64,000 nt of DNA, taken from assembly GCA_035546535.1 (NCBI GenBank), contig DASZWQ010000111.1, positions 80,357 through 144,356 on the forward strand, written 5' to 3'. Position 1 is the stretch's first letter, and each line of letters opens with the position of its first letter. Source of the stretch: Pirellulales bacterium (GTDB lineage: Bacteria > Planctomycetota > Planctomycetia > Pirellulales > JACPPG01). The notes below the pieces were generated by a model. That model did not search any database. It worked only from the letters and a program-made list of their open reading frames with translations, and was not told the DNA's origin. Below are positions 25,602 to 41,081 of the stretch, one piece after another. The position numbers and the translations under genes are program-made.

Positions 25602-26608
25602 TGCGAACCACCTGTGATCTCGCCGCCGGCGATCGTACACATGTACTGATACGTCAGCGGCTCGATGCTGCTGGTGATAAAGCGCACCGAACCGTCGCCG
25701 AGCAGGAAGTTCGCCCCCTGGCCGGCATGCATGCTGTAGAACGTATCGGGGTCGAAGATCGGAAAGTCGGCGCTCGGCACGTGCGTGGCGTTGCCGTGCG
25801 CGAGCACCAGCGCCTCGGCGAAGTCGGTGTTGTCGTACGCCGGCCCTGGTGGAGGCGAGTTCGGCGTCTGGCCCGCCATCCAGGCCGGACATAGTCCACC
25901 GGTGACGGCGCCGGTCCAGGTACTGGGCGAATGATCGCCCGAGCGCTCGCCGACGACGATCGTGACGCTCAATCCGTCGGTGATGCTGGCCGGCGTAAAG
26001 CGGCTGTTGCGGAAGAAGAGGCCGTCTCCTTCCAGCCCCAAACCGCCCTGAAGTCCGTCGGCGCCACCGCTGCCATCGGCCGCGCCGCCGGCATTGTAGA
26101 AGCACTCGATCCAGCCATTGCAGCCCACGTAGTTGGCGTGCGCCACGGTGGCGATCGGCGCGCTCATATTAATGTCGTAAATCGCGACCGGGTCCTGCCA
26201 GGGATCGGTCGGACATTGATACATGGCCAGCGTTTGTTGCGCCACCGTCGCGTTCACAGCTGCTTGCACGCCCTGATGGAATTGAATCTGGTTGTACAGA
26301 TTCTGCTGTTCTTGAAACGGCAATAGAAAGGCGGCCCAACCCCAGCCGGGACCAACGTCGTTATCCGGCGTCGCTGTGGCGACCTTATTGCCGTCGATAT
26401 AGCCGGGCGGAAAGAAGCCCTGGCTGTTGACGTAGTTGTGCAGCGCCAGGCCGATCTGCTTCAAGTTATTCGTACATTGGCCGCGTCGCGCCGCTTCGCG
26501 CGCGGCTTGCACCGCGGGCAAGAGCAGTGCAACCAGCATTCCGATAATGGCAATCACGACCAACAGCTCGACGAGCGTGAACGCCCGTCGCGAATATCTT
26601 CTGTACAT
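25598..26608 (-). CDS. DUF1559 pseudopilin-like protein
   Basis: This 336-residue protein has a type IV pilin-like N-terminus (R-R-A-F-T-L-V-E-L-L-V-V-I-A-I-I) with the prepilin peptidase site, then the DUF1559 domain. It ends with the planctomycete H-X9-D-G motif (H-A-G-Q-G-A-N-F-L-L-G-D-G). Such proteins are expanded to dozens of copies in planctomycetes and are thought to assemble fibres or sit in the envelope; the role of each copy is unknown. It overlaps the HEAT lipoprotein gene by 4 nt. Confidence 0.93.
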   Translation of the reverse strand: MYRRYSRRAFTLVELLVVIAIIGMLVALLLPAVQAAREAARRGQCTNNLKQIGLALHNYVNSQGFFPPGYIDGNKVATATPDNDVGPGWGWAAFLLPFQEQQNLYNQIQFHQGVQAAVNATVAQQTLAMYQCPTDPWQDPVAIYDINMSAPIATVAHANYVGCNGWIECFYNAGGAADGSGGADGLQGGLGLEGDGLFFRNSRFTPASITDGLSVTIVVGERSGDHSPSTWTGAVTGGLCPAWMAGQTPNSPPPGPAYDNTDFAEALVLAHGNATHVPSADFPIFDPDTFYSMHAGQGANFLLGDGSVRFITSSIEPLTYQYMCTIAGGEITGGSQ

Positions 26609-34604: not shown

Positions 34605-36791
34605 TTACTGCTCTTCACGCTTCGCCTCGGTTTCGCCGTCCCCTTCGACGATGACTTTCGGTGTCAGCAGTAAGTACAGAAATTGTTTCTGCTCGTAGGT
34701 GGGAATGCAGCCGATGAGTAACGACTGACCGTCGGCTAAAGTTGACGAGACGTCAATTTGGCAGTGGCGGACGCGTGGGATCTCGAGCGTCGTTGGACCG
34801 TCGGGAGTGACCGCGGTAATTTTGCGGACTTCCTCGATCTTGCTCAGATCGATGTGCCCGTCGAGGCCAATTGTTTTGGCATCGGCGCTTTGTAGCGTCC
34901 GCATTTTTATTTTAACCCCCTCGTCGACGACGACGACCCGCGGACGTTGGCCGCCATCGGCCAATCGTGCGATTCCCACGGTGTACGCCGCTTGGGTGTA
35001 ATCATTGAGAAAGATCTGCTGACCGTTGAAGGCGGTCACCTTAGGTGCCTGCAAGGTCTGACCGGTGACGTTGGCGATGATTGAATTGACCAGAGCCTTC
35101 GCTTGTTGCTTGTCGAGCGTGGCCACGGCCGTGGCCAGGTAGTCGTCGACCGATGCGGCCGCTCGGACGTTGAGCTTCTCCTCGCGCCATTCCGAGAACG
35201 CTTCCTCGTCCTCCGCAGGCGGCACCGGTCCAACGTAACGCCATGCGACGCCGAGCCGTGCGGCGACGTCTTCGTCGCAGGTGAGAAAGCGCGTTTCGAT
35301 GCACGTCTGGCCGATACCACTTTTTTCCCAGGCCGCCAGCAAGCGGGCGATCTCGTCGTTTACGGTGCGAGGCGCGGTGATGGTCAGTCGATCGCCGTCG
35401 AGCTTCATGCGCTCGTCCGCCCACTCCTTGGTTTTGACGTCGTGCTGGCTGGCGCTCATGGGCAACACGTGTGCCAGTAGCCAGTAGACGTTTCTTCTCG
35501 CCGTATCGCTTCCGGGGTTGGTATCGATGCGCTCCCAGATTTTCGCCAGGTCGTACGTGCGAGCGATCTCGGGACCGGGATCCGGCTTCGGCGAAGCCCA
35601 CACGTCCCAATCATAGGCGGCGCCGGGCAGCCAATCGTTTTTTGGTGCGGGCTTCGGTGGCGGCGTTTGCGCATCGGTCAGGCCGGCGATCGCCACGAGC
35701 GCGACGACCAGCGCCGCGCCGATCGCCTGCCAGCGCCCGCGCACGACGCCAGCCCTCTGCAGGGCCTGCAACCGGTTTTGTGCCGCGCGCCGACGAACGA
35801 AACCCGACAGAAAGCCGACGATCAACGCCGGCAGCATGATTCGCCAACGCGAATGCATCGCCGGCCGTGAGAGAAGCTTTAACAGCAGCTCGGAATAGGC
35901 TCGGGCCGGGCACCCCTCGAGATGCGCGAGCGCGAAGGCGTCGCACGCTTGCTCCCGCAGCGCTCGAAAGCGCGCGGCGGCCAGCCAGTAAACCGGGTTC
36001 CACCAATGCGCGGCTCGCACAAGCGCCAGCAGCCAGTTGGCCGCGATGTCGTAGCGGCGCACGTGGCCGAGTTCGTGCAGCATCACCATCCGCAGTTCGT
36101 CATCGGACAAATCAAGCGCCGCCGGAGGCAGGAGCAATTTCGGGCGCCACAGGCCGGCAACGGCGACATGGTCGATCGTTTCGAGGTGCAAGAGCGGAAT
36201 CGCGCGGCGGCAGCCGACGAGCCGACGACACTCGTTCCATAGCGCAAGCAATGGCGGATCCGTACACGGCAACGCCTGGCCTAACAGGCGATGAAAACGC
36301 CAATTGGCGACGAGCGTTGCTGCCAGCAGGGCGATCAACCCAACGAGCCACGCCGCGGGCAAGAGTATCGCGATAAGATCGAGAACCGGAGTCGGCTCGT
36401 GAACGCTACTAGCGGCCTCCACGGTCGTCGGCGCCGTGGCTAGCGTTGCGGCGGCTTCGTCAGCTTCTGCACCGACAAGCGTATCGTCAGCCGGGCTGGC
36501 AACAGAGCTTGGCATGGGCGGCTGTGCGTCCGCGTCGGGAATCATCCGCAACAGATTTTGCAGGCTGACCATGCTCGGCGGCGCGAGCGGAACGAGCAAT
36601 CGCACGAGTACCATGGCCCACAGCAGGCTCATCACGCCGGCAGACAGCCAACGCCGCAGCGCGACATTCAAAACGCCGACGACGATCGCCAAGAGCGAGG
36701 CGGTCGCACCGGCAACGATCGAGAACACCAGGCCCGTGCTACCTAGGTCGTCCAACAATATGCCAAGGGAGGAGAGTCCGTCCATGATCAA
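34605..36791 (-). CDS. BlaR1-like M56 peptidase fused to a secretin-like domain
   Basis: This is a 728-residue protein. The first ~370 residues form a BlaR1/MecR1 sensor: membrane helices, zinc peptidase motif H239-E-L-G-H, and E-Q-A-C-D near 280. Canonical BlaR1 ends with a penicillin-binding sensor; here residues about 440-715 resemble secretin domains instead, with L-Q-A-P-K-V-T-A-F-N-G-Q near 580 and K-I-K-M-R...F-L-Y-L-L-L-T-P-K-V near 627-713. The signal sensed is thus unlikely to be a beta-lactam by the usual route. It overlaps the regulator gene by 4 nt (36788-36791). Confidence 0.85.
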   Translation of the reverse strand: MIMDGLSSLGILLDDLGSTGLVFSIVAGATASLLAIVVGVLNVALRRWLSAGVMSLLWAMVLVRLLVPLAPPSMVSLQNLLRMIPDADAQPPMPSSVASPADDTLVGAEADEAAATLATAPTTVEAASSVHEPTPVLDLIAILLPAAWLVGLIALLAATLVANWRFHRLLGQALPCTDPPLLALWNECRRLVGCRRAIPLLHLETIDHVAVAGLWRPKLLLPPAALDLSDDELRMVMLHELGHVRRYDIAANWLLALVRAAHWWNPVYWLAAARFRALREQACDAFALAHLEGCPARAYSELLLKLLSRPAMHSRWRIMLPALIVGFLSGFVRRRAAQNRLQALQRAGVVRGRWQAIGAALVVALVAIAGLTDAQTPPPKPAPKNDWLPGAAYDWDVWASPKPDPGPEIARTYDLAKIWERIDTNPGSDTARRNVYWLLAHVLPMSASQHDVKTKEWADERMKLDGDRLTITAPRTVNDEIARLLAAWEKSGIGQTCIETRFLTCDEDVAARLGVAWRYVGPVPPAEDEEAFSEWREEKLNVRAAASVDDYLATAVATLDKQQAKALVNSIIANVTGQTLQAPKVTAFNGQQIFLNDYTQAAYTVGIARLADGGQRPRVVVVDEGVKIKMRTLQSADAKTIGLDGHIDLSKIEEVRKITAVTPDGPTTLEIPRVRHCQIDVSSTLADGQSLLIGCIPTYEQKQFLYLLLTPKVIVEGDGETEAKREEQ

Positions 36792-37159
36792 CCTTCCTGC
36801 TCATCGAGCATTTGGCGTAACGCGGCAATTTCCTCGTGCGATAGCTTCGCGCTGCGCAGAAAATGGGCCAGCAACAGCGCTGATTCACCCCCGAAAACGC
36901 GCTCCAGAAACGAGCGACTCGCCTGCTTGACGCAGTCCGTGCGCCGCGCGCGGGCCCGGTAGACGTAGCGATTCCCGTCCAACTCGTAGGTGAGGACCCG
37001 CTTCTTCACCAGCCGATGCAGCATGGTCTTCACCGTTGCCGGAGCCCAGGAGGCGTGATCCGCTAGCTGGGCAATCACTTCCTGCGCCGCGAGTGGCCGG
37101 TGATCCCAGATGACGTTCATCACCTGCCACTCGGCGTCGGAAATCGTGACTGTCGGCAT
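36788..37159 (-). CDS. blaI: BlaI/MecI/CopY-family transcriptional repressor
   Basis: This 123-residue winged-helix repressor matches BlaI in length. It has an I-S-D-A-E-W-Q-V-M-N-V-I-W-D start and a T-V-K-T-M-L-H-R-L-V-K-K recognition helix near residues 42-53. Family members bind TACA-N-TGTA dyads and are cleaved on signalling from the M56 partner encoded just downstream. Two such dyads lie in its own promoter, so it is likely autoregulated. GGAGG is 7 nt upstream of the ATG. Confidence 0.93.
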   Translation of the reverse strand: MPTVTISDAEWQVMNVIWDHRPLAAQEVIAQLADHASWAPATVKTMLHRLVKKRVLTYELDGNRYVYRARARRTDCVKQASRSFLERVFGGESALLLAHFLRSAKLSHEEIAALRQMLDEQEG

Positions 37160-37185: not shown

Positions 37186-37197
37186 TTACACGTGTAA
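37186..37197. promoter_or_regulatory. BlaI-type operator 1
   Basis: TTACACGTGTAA is a perfect 12-bp palindrome with the TACA...TGTA core bound by BlaI/MecI repressors. It overlaps the -10 element of the blaI-blaR1 promoter on its downstream side, 27 bp before the start codon. Confidence 0.85.
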
Positions 37198-37223
37198 ATA
37201 ATTACATTTGTAATCGTTGTCAA
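37195..37223 (-). promoter_or_regulatory. Promoter of the blaI-blaR1-like operon
   Basis: On the minus strand TTGACA (37218-37223, perfect -35) is followed after exactly 17 bp by TATTTA (37195-37200, -10). Operator 2 fills the spacer and operator 1 overlaps the -10, so a bound repressor would block RNA polymerase. Confidence 0.85.
37201..37214. promoter_or_regulatory. BlaI-type operator 2
   Basis: ATTACATTTGTAAT is a dyad with the TACA...TGTA core, sitting in the promoter spacer. Its centre is 16 bp from the centre of operator 1, which would let two repressor dimers bind side by side. Confidence 0.85.
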
Positions 37224-37410: not shown

Positions 37411-39840
37411 TCACCACCGCCAGTCGCGGATCTCGGGCATGTCTTCGCCGTACGTGCGGATGTAATGCTTGTGATCGATGAGACGGTCGCGGCAGAACTG
37501 CTTGACGTATGCGCCTCGATCCTGCAGTTGCGGCAGCCGGTCGATAGTGTCCATCACCAGGTGGAAGCGGTCCATGTCATTGAGCACGGTCATGTCGAAC
37601 GGCGTGGTGATGGTGCCTTCTTCCTTGTAACCGCGGACGTGCATGTTGTCGTGATTCGCCCGACGATACGTCAGCCGGTGAATCAGCCAGGGATAGCCGT
37701 GATAGGCGAAAATCACGGGCTTGTCGCGCGTGAAGAACGAATCGAAGTCCTTGTCCGGCAATCCGTGCGGATGCTCGCTAGCCGGCTGCAGCTTCATCAG
37801 GTCGACGACGTTCACGACGCGGATCTTCAATTCCGGCAGGTGCTCGCGCAGCAGCTTGACGGCTGCCAGGATTTCCAGCGTCGGAATGTCACCCGCGGCA
37901 GCCATCACCAGGTCAGGCTCGCCCCCGGCGTCGTTACTGGCAAATTCCCAGATGCTGACACCGCCCGTGCAATGCTTCACAGCCTGGTCCATCGTTAGCC
38001 ACTGCGGCGCCATATGTTTTCCGGCGACGATGATGTTCACGTACTGCCGGCTGCGCAGGCAATGATCTGCCACCGACAAGAGGCAGTTCGCGTCGGGCGG
38101 CAGATAGACGCGCACGATTTCGGCCTTCTTGTTCATCGCCACGTCGATGAACCCCGGATCCTGGTGCGTAAAGCCGTTGTGGTCCTGCCGCCACACGTGC
38201 GACGACAACAGGTAGTTGAGCGATGCGATCGGCCGTCGCCAGGAAATATGATTCGTGACTTGCAACCACTTAGCGTGCTGGTTGAACATCGAATCGACGA
38301 TATGAATGAACGCCTCGTACGAGTTGAACAGGCCGTGACGTCCGGTCAGCAGGTAGCCTTCCAGCCATCCCTCGCACTGATGCTCGCTGAGCACTTCCAT
38401 CACGCGGCCGTCGCGCGCCAAATGATCGTCGCCTTTGATCAATTCCGCGTTCCACTGCCGCTCGGTCGCTTGAAAAACGTCGTTCAACCGATTCGACATC
38501 GTTTCGTCGGGGCCGAAAATGCGGAAGTTGCGCATGGAAGCGTTTTGCCTGATGACGTCGCGCAAGTAGGTCCCCAGCACGCGCGTGTCTTCGGCATCGA
38601 CGGCACCGGGCGAGGTCACTTTCACGGCGTATTGCTCAAAATCCGGCAGCGTCAGATCCTTGAGCAGCAGCCCGCCATTGGCGTGCGGATTGGCTCCCAT
38701 GCGCCGATCGCCTTGCGGCGCCAATTCCCGTAAGTCTCCCATCAGTCGGCCCGACTCGTCGAACAATTCCTGCGGTTTGTAGCTGCGCAGCCACTCGTCG
38801 AGCTGCTTGAGATGCTGCGGATTCTTGTGCGGGTCGGAAAGCGGGACCTGGTGCGCGCGAAACGTGCCTTCGACCTGCAGGCCGTCGACCATTTTGGGCC
38901 CGGTCCAGCCCTTGGGCGTGTCGAGCACGATCATTGGCCAGCGGGGGCGCGTGGCGTCGTGCTTCGTGCGGGCGTTGTGCTGGATCTCGGCGATCTGGTC
39001 GAAGATCGTATCGAGCGTCGTGGCCATCAGCTCGTGCATCTTCGTGGGGTCATCACCGGCGACGAAGTACGGCTCGTACCCATAGCCGCGCATGAGCTGC
39101 TCGAGCTCTTCGTGGCTGATCCGCGCGAGCACCGTCGGATTCGCGATCTTGTAGCCATTGAGATGCAGGATCGGCAGCACGGCGCCGTCGGTGATCGGGT
39201 TCAAGAACTTATTGCTGTGCCAGGCCGTGGCCAAGGGGCCGGTTTCGGCCTCGCCATCGCCAATGACGCACGCCACGACGAGGTTGGGATTGTCGAACAC
39301 GGCGCCGAAGGCGTGGCTCATGCTGTACCCCAGTTCGCCTCCTTCATGGATCGAACCGGGTGTCTCGGGGGCGACGTGGCTGGGAATGCCGCCGGGAAAA
39401 GAGAACTGCTTGAACAGTTTTTGCATTCCCTCGGTGTCTTCGGTGATGTGCGAATAGAGCTCGCTGTAGGTTCCCTCCAGGTAGGTGTTCGCCACCAGGG
39501 CCGGACCGCCGTGTCCCGGGCCGGCAATGTAGATCATGTCCAGATCGCGATCCTTGATGATGCGATTCAAATGGACATAGACGAAATTCTGTCCCGGCGT
39601 CGTTCCCCAATGCCCCAGCAGGCGCGGCTTCACGTGCTCGGACTTGAGCGGTTCGCGCAACAGCGGATTGTCGTACAGGTAAATCTGCCCGACCGACAAG
39701 TAATTCGCCGCTCGCCAATAGCGATCGATGCGGTGCAGCAAATCGGGCGATAGCGAACGACCGGCCGCTCGGCCCTCGCCGGCCGAGTCCGATTTCTTCT
39801 CAACCTTCGGCGCCCGCTTCTCGATCGACGAGCTTGACAT
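37411..39840 (-). CDS. xfp: Phosphoketolase (xylulose-5-P/fructose-6-P)
   Basis: This 809-residue protein is a full-length thiamine-diphosphate phosphoketolase that splits xylulose 5-phosphate or fructose 6-phosphate into acetyl phosphate plus glyceraldehyde 3-phosphate or erythrose 4-phosphate. It shows G-H-W-G-T-T-P-G near residue 76, G-P-G-H-G-G-P near 107, and the G-D-G-E-A-E-T-G cofactor motif near 193. The acetate kinase gene lies 38 bp upstream on the same strand, so acetyl phosphate can be turned into acetate and ATP. Sequence does not separate the two substrate preferences. Confidence 0.96.
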
Positions 39841-39878
39841 GAGGTAGTTCCTTTGCCGTTGGTGAAACGCGCGAGGAA

Positions 39879-41081
39879 TTAACGGCTTTCAGGCTCGTCG
39901 AGCAGCCGCTGGACCTCGCGTGCAATCATCGATTCTTCATCCGTGTGGATGACCCATACCTGGCACCGTGCGTCAGGTGCAGAAATCATTCCCTGGCCGG
40001 TCGCATTTTGGACGTTGTCTAGAGCAATGCCCAAGTGGCCCAGTTCCCGACAGATTTCGGCGCGCGTTTCGACCGAATTTTCTCCGATCCCACCGGCAAA
40101 TACCAGCGTATCGATCCCGCCGAGTGCGGCGGCCAGCGCGCCAATCCATTTTCGCGCCTGGTAAGAAAAGACCGACAAAGCGTCGCGAGCGCGCGGATCC
40201 GTCACACGTCGTGCCAGCAAATCGCGCACGTCGGCGATCGTTTCCGAGAGCCCCAGCAGCCCCGATTGCCGGTTCACCAGCTCATCGATCGCGTCGGCCG
40301 TCATGTGCTTTTGCCGAAGCAAGTGGACAAACACGCCCGGGTCGAGGTCGCCGGTACGCGTTCCCATCACCAGCCCGGCCGTGGGCGTGAACGCCATCGT
40401 TGTATCCACGCAGTGTCCGTCGCGCACGGCGGCCATGCTCGCGCCGCTGCCAAGATGGGCGAGTACGACCCGCCCTCGCGCACGCTCGGGCCCCGCCAGG
40501 CGCGCCAGCTCTTCCATCAAAAAACTGTACGACAGACCATGAAAACCATAGCGGCGGATTCCCTCGCGTTCGAAATGCAGCGGAATCGGCAGTAATCGCG
40601 CTTCGCGCGGCAGGTCGCGATGAAATGCCGTATCGAAGCAGGCGATCTCGGCGACCTTCGGCAGCCGCCGCTGGCAAGCCTCGACCAGCGCGATCTCGCC
40701 GGGCAGATGTTCGGGATCCAAAGGCGCGAGGCGCCGCAACTCGTCGAGCATCGCAGGCGTGATCGATTGCGACGCCGTGAAATCGGCTCCGCCGTGTACG
40801 ATGCGGTGGCCGATGCCGCGAAGCCGCCCCAGATCGAATTGCTTGCCCAGTCGGTCAAACAAGATCTTTGCGGCGCTCTCCAAATCCGGCGCCTCGACCG
40901 GCTGCGCAGCGCTCGCCTCGCCCGTGGCACAGCGCGTGAAGAGCGATGCCTGCTGCCCGACGCGCTCGATCCGCCCGGAAAATTGTCGCGTCGGGGGCTC
41001 GCCCGGCGCGAACACTGCGAACTTCAGGCTCGACGACCCGCCGTTGAGCGCCAAAATCCAATCATCCATGGCCGGCCACAC
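39879..41081 (-). CDS. ackA: Acetate kinase
   Basis: This 400-residue ASKHA-fold kinase makes acetate and ATP from acetyl phosphate and ADP, or the reverse. It has the N-terminal [10 protein letters not shown] motif, V-H-G-G near residue 95, G-F-H-G-L-S-Y, H-L-G-S-G-A-S near 208 and F-A-G-G-I-G-E-N-S near 330. ATG 41069 (M-D-D-W) is an alternative start that drops four residues. It is paired with phosphoketolase, completing a short acetate-forming route. Confidence 0.96.

Follow-up and report, generated by a model that had tools for sequence, protein, structure and literature searches.

We present an analysis of an M56-family receptor gene in a stretch of 64,000 nucleotides from a Pirellulales bacterium (hereafter, the window), and our findings support that it likely encodes a receptor of the BlaR1/BlaI regulated-proteolysis type that controls its own expression and senses through a secretin-derived domain. 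BlaR1 is familiar as a receptor in antibiotic resistance; in this case, its proteolytic switch appears to be wired, repeatedly and in a manner conserved across planctomycete families, to a secretin that has lost its pore. We found no description of an M56-secretin fusion in the open-access papers searched.

Table 1. Features of the receptor locus, in window coordinates
Feature	Position	Strand	Description
M56-secretin-like receptor gene	34605..36791	(-)	728 codons counted from TTG
Peptidase_M56 domain	35856..36704	(-)	residues 30-312; PF05569 143 bits vs cut-off 31
HELGH zinc motif	36063..36077	(-)	residues 239-243; H239, E240 and H243 invariant in 13 fusions
EQACD motif	35940..35954	(-)	residues 280-284; E280 third zinc ligand, D284
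Fourth membrane helix	35670..35726	(-)	residues 356-374 (hydropathy); leads into the periplasmic part
N-domain	35313..35570	(-)	residues 408-493; secretin N-domain/ferredoxin-like
Trimmed secretin core	34647..35312	(-)	residues 494-715
blaI	36788..37159	(-)	Penicillinase_R repressor, 123 aa, 123.8 bits
Putative operator dyad 1	37186..37197	.	TTACACGTGTAA
-10-like TATTTA	37195..37200	(-)	overlapped by operator 1
Putative operator dyad 2	37202..37213	.	TTACATTTGTAA
-35 box TTGACA, blaI promoter	37218..37223	(-)	

The open reading frame of the receptor is a real gene at the coordinates in Table 1. The listed TTG start at 36791 overlaps the blaI stop codon, and we prefer the ATG six bases further in, at 36785, as the probable true start, with AGGAAGG directly 5' of it. 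In addition to the M56 domain with its HExxH and ExxxD motifs, the receptor has the accessory residues of BlaR1. The E and D of the EQACD motif are invariant across the 13 fusions, as are the residues corresponding to BlaR1 H201, E202, H205, E242 and D246; R294 is also invariant, although its assignment, made by position, is less certain, and D210 and Y261 are kept in 12 of the 13. The roles of these catalytic and accessory residues in BlaR1 were defined previously (PMC9834060). Hydropathy indicates a four-helix topology, with the fourth helix at residues 353-370 in the predicted model, and the full-length model has the BlaR1 fold (Z 19.9 and rmsd 3.6 Å over 256 aligned residues of Staphylococcus aureus BlaR1). 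Judged from its sequence, the receptor is a BlaR1-type M56 zinc peptidase that retains all catalytic residues.

The C-terminal 320 residues of the receptor are homologous to secretins according to sequence profiles and structural models, and this similarity is not due to chance. Using the Pfam Secretin profile (PF00263) on the C-terminal 351 residues, we obtained a score of 20.1 bits (E 5e-4), which is below the gathering cut-off of 27.5, but several full-length orthologues pass it (31.9, 28.7, 32.3, 42.9, 43.7, 34.8, and 47.1 bits); the profile search gave no match to PASTA or penicillin-binding families. Full-length relatives of the receptor in other planctomycete families are 25-46% identical to it. 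When a profile of 13 fusions was compared with solved structures, its first 305 positions matched BlaR1 (E 2e-9) and its C-terminal part matched BfpB (6e-6), GspD (5e-5) and pIV (6e-5). For an AlphaFold model of the C-terminal part (pLDDT 82.6), the best 35 Foldseek matches were secretins without exception, and the 28 structures ranked highest by VIA-align were all secretins (Z 9.3-12.3), followed by an unrelated structure at Z 6.9. Because the alignment behind this model included true secretins and possibly biased it, modelling was repeated with fusions only; the resulting full-length model recovered the same four long strands and matched secretins with a Z of about 11 over residues 493-716. 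The four core strands span residues 592-609, 615-634, 640-662 and 665-686, and the predicted fold is the secretin beta-core of PF00263. pIV aligns to residues 31-338 of the C-terminal model, i.e., 408-715 of the protein, and ferredoxin-like matches cover model residues 31-116; assignments of this N-domain to a copper chaperone, SecDF and the like were rejected as generic ferredoxin folds with low Z. The motifs APKxTxFNGQ, DxxQxPFV and EG are conserved and common to fusions and true secretins. An earlier note on this DNA had proposed that intact M56 motifs (H239-E-L-G-H and E-Q-A-C-D) are combined with secretin-like residues 440-715 in a protein without a penicillin sensor. Both motifs are present, the orthologue scores, the fusion profile and the Foldseek and VIA-align matches bear out the secretin assignment, and no penicillin sensor was detected (see below). 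Altogether, these data support that the secretin-derived part, consisting of the N-domain and the beta-core, occupies the place of the penicillin sensor of BlaR1.

Outside the M56 proteins, the closest sequences are the C-terminal regions of a planctomycete secretin, which is mostly 1100-1520 residues long and widespread in the phylum; the genome analyzed here itself carries a true secretin of 1404 aa (G000:C111:25.9 kb). Compared with true planctomycete secretins, the secretin core of the receptor is short (214 versus 297-336 residues). From the first core strand to the helix before APKxT, presumably the site of the membrane lip in true secretins, fusions have 18-62 residues and true secretins 70-132, and the window protein has an acidic, low-confidence loop in place of the lip. 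VPxLxxIPxxxxLF, which we take to be the secretin PROSITE pattern and which is recognized in the true planctomycete secretins here, is absent from the window protein and the 10 fusion ORFs checked and occurs in 62 of 69 other ORFs, a set that includes some truncated sequences and one (L075) that is itself a fusion. The tip between strands 3 and 4, which is probably gate 2 based on the layout in PMC12114550, is 12-19 residues long in fusions versus 40-55 in true secretins. The signature, the full membrane-lip segment and the strand 3-4 hairpin of PF00263 are all missing, and the charged fraction of strand residues is 0.23 in fusions versus 0.09 in true secretins, with ranges that do not overlap. 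Because of these missing segments and the charged strands, we infer from sequence and model that the C-terminal domain is probably a soluble periplasmic sensor and not a pore. The parts that make secretins gated pores of the outer membrane are lost, arguing that the receptor contains a modified secretin fold and is not a pore-protease fusion. Thus, of the secretin-like domain suggested in the earlier note, the secretin-derived fold stands, while the lip, hairpin and signature of a pore are lacking.

blaI directly precedes the receptor gene. The window BlaI carries an H-F pair (P1-P1') equivalent to the N101-F102 cleavage site of BlaI, and the P1' residue is Phe in 19 of 21 main-clade BlaI proteins and Leu in the remainder. 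blaI adjoins every fusion examined, save the second member of a tandem pair; at that locus (L176:5941-10953, G236), a single blaI is followed by two tandem M56-secretin genes. The blaI promoter of the window contains two adjacent TTACANNTGTAA dyads, of which one (operator 2) lies inside the 17-bp spacer and one over the −10 element, and this TTGAC-plus-dyads arrangement recurs 5' of most fusion blaI genes. With an adjacent BlaI-family repressor, a predicted cleavable site and promoter dyads that are putative BlaI operators, in addition to the catalytic residues, the receptor has the anatomy of a regulator.

Two exact dyads are present in the 6.36-Mb genome, both at the blaI promoter and none elsewhere. 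Allowing up to three mismatches, 10 of the 13 fusion genomes have a single copy of the dyad pair each, in every case ahead of blaI (0-1 hits in a reversed-sequence control), and the regulon that can be detected is therefore limited to the operon itself. A wider regulon was rejected because the exact dyad is confined to the blaI promoter and the extra single sites in related genomes belong to a second blaI-M56 operon (two genomes) or are not shared. We found no effector gene in the predicted regulon, and flanking-ORF clustering revealed no conserved neighbor genes around the fusion loci; both observations count against our preferred explanation. Neighbor genes were rejected as targets because the clusters contained only generic planctomycete families (sulfatase, DUF1559, DUF1501 and the like). 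In the window, tandem phosphoketolase and acetate kinase genes (37411-41081) lie upstream of blaI; they are absent at other fusion loci, and their proximity is probably coincidental. A GTACACATGTAC palindrome at 25636-25645, inside an ORF of a DUF1559-like cluster, is probably due to chance.

M56-secretin fusions were detected in at least 8 of 58 relatives in the order and at least 12 of 392 genomes in the phylum; both counts are lower bounds, as no more than two candidates per genome were scored in the phylum survey. The fusion is patchy, and true secretins are common in planctomycetes, arguing that the fusion is not essential to secretin biology. In the tree of the M56 domain, fusions form two or more separated groups, and well-supported branches force three changes, implying repeated fusion or repeated loss; the tree of the C-terminal domain is less sure owing to long branches. 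In a plasmid search, the C-terminal domain gave no match that would indicate plasmid spread. In the second fusion group, the operators are GTACANNTGTAC-like and the proteins are longer; some of these include five POTRA repeats or SLBB domains. One M56 protein of 1400 aa (L055:2468-6667, G001:C161) has five POTRA repeats (157 bits), the BamA-type module, after its secretin-like stretch. Two others, of 1582 and 1709 aa (L071:3687-8432 and L072:3501-8627), carry one secretin-like block and, close to the C-terminus, a further block that is only partial.

The genome carries 13 M56 genes and 13 BlaI genes. Among its other M56 proteins are ones with HlyD, Poly_export, WD40, Big_5 or CarboxypepD_reg domains. 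This variety shows the M56-BlaI switch to be a modular receptor of general use, and several of its added modules derive from export machines. Individual examples are M56-BlaI receptors with a C-terminal Wza-type Poly_export region (86 bits; L201:2111-4042, G000:C37) or a C-terminal HlyD adaptor region (60 bits; L195:2263-4971, G000:C180), and an M56 receptor that carries a WD40 beta-propeller and has a BlaI of its own (L194:2871-5084, G000:C148).

In our model, the topology, M56 activation, BlaI cleavage and self-derepression are taken from BlaR1, and the domains, catalytic residues, BlaI partner, operators, fold and loss of lip, hairpin and signature are those computed here. The M56 domain would be anchored by four helices and face the cytoplasm, and the secretin-like part would reside in the periplasm. 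A protein event in the periplasm would alter the state of this part and activate M56, which would cut BlaI at the H-F bond; once cleaved, BlaI would come off the double operator, relieving repression of the blaI-receptor operon. As the likeliest trigger, we tentatively suggest contact or co-assembly with unassembled or mislocalized subunits of secretins or other export channels. Export-channel stress, as raised in the earlier note, is a plausible signal and an attractive hypothesis; pointing to it are the domain's origin, the recurrence of export modules and the precedent of the Psp response, in which PspBC recognize and bind multimerized mislocalized secretins (PMC5596341). PspC was found in one of eight fusion genomes tested and not in the other seven. 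The receptor is a candidate means for a bacterium without the PspBC sensor to monitor secretin or outer-membrane export assembly; PspA-family proteins are present in seven of the eight, which counts against this explanation. More speculatively, and we consider this rather doubtful, planctomycete M56/BlaI receptors may in general survey outer-membrane export machines using sensors derived from periplasmic parts of those same machines (secretin core, POTRA, SLBB/Poly_export and HlyD), with the secretin version detecting mis-assembled secretins. If so, the latter would fill the role of PspBC in enterobacteria.

The evidence for secretin or export-channel mis-assembly as the signal is circumstantial, and the same facts can be accounted for by a domain recruited to bind a ligand. 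The secretin-like beta sheet could have been recruited for an unrelated ligand, such that the receptor is a periplasmic ligand or peptidoglycan sensor that uses the same proteolytic switch but is no longer tied to secretion channels, a possibility to which we give real weight without favoring it. The loss of the pore-forming parts, the recharged strand surfaces, the regulon confined to the operon and the unrelated sensors of sister receptors (WD40, CarboxypepD_reg and Big_5) all fit such a role; however, the motifs APKxTxFNGQ, DxxQxPFV and EG are still common to true secretins, and export-machine domains (POTRA, SLBB, HlyD and Poly_export) recur on M56 receptors.

We consider it improbable that the fusion acts as a true secretin pore held at the inner membrane, with M56 controlling its assembly or turnover. 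The four-strand secretin sheet and the N-domain are retained, which speaks for such a pore, but, besides the trimmed segments, the charged strands and the acidic loop at the lip position, the protein has a membrane anchor in place of a signal peptide, and BlaI and the operators indicate signaling. BlaR1 is the closest characterized relative of the M56 part, raising the question of whether the protein is a disguised beta-lactam receptor or its C-terminal region only generically beta-rich. In a profile search, the receptor gave no match to a transpeptidase domain at E values up to 1, and its C-terminal part has no SxxK motif, arguing against BlaR1-type acylation by beta-lactams; a penicillin-binding or PASTA sensor was rejected on the same grounds. 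Moreover, the receptor scores 102.6 bits against the BlaR1 beta-lactam sensor family NF000326 (cut-off 400), and the structural matches place secretins well ahead of any unrelated fold, which makes either possibility extremely remote.

The regulated-proteolysis receptor that we favor shares with the BlaR1/MecR1-BlaI/MecI systems of S. aureus and Bacillus licheniformis the M56 gluzincin with four membrane helices and the same catalytic residues, as well as a partner BlaI repressor with an equivalent cleavage site and promoter dyad operators. It differs from them in its secretin-derived sensor, in the gene order, which is blaI-receptor, in that we found no beta-lactamase or PBP target, and in a detectable regulon confined to the operon. 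The Mycobacterium tuberculosis BlaR1 homologue (PMC9834060) is likewise part of an M56-BlaI pair without a penicillin sensor, but has no equivalent of the new sensor domain. With GspD, PilQ, InvG, pIV, BfpB and the ~1400-aa planctomycete secretin, the receptor shares the N-domain, the beta-core and the conserved motifs; unlike these secretins, it has charged strands and no membrane-lip region, strand 3-4 hairpin or VPxLxxIPxxxxLF pattern, and M56 serves as its anchor to the inner membrane. If our suggestion for the signal is correct, the receptor would, by analogy, resemble the Psp response (PMC5596341) in having a secretin sensor in the inner membrane and a narrow, self-centered regulon, although the proteins are unrelated and the receptor would act via proteolysis of a repressor.
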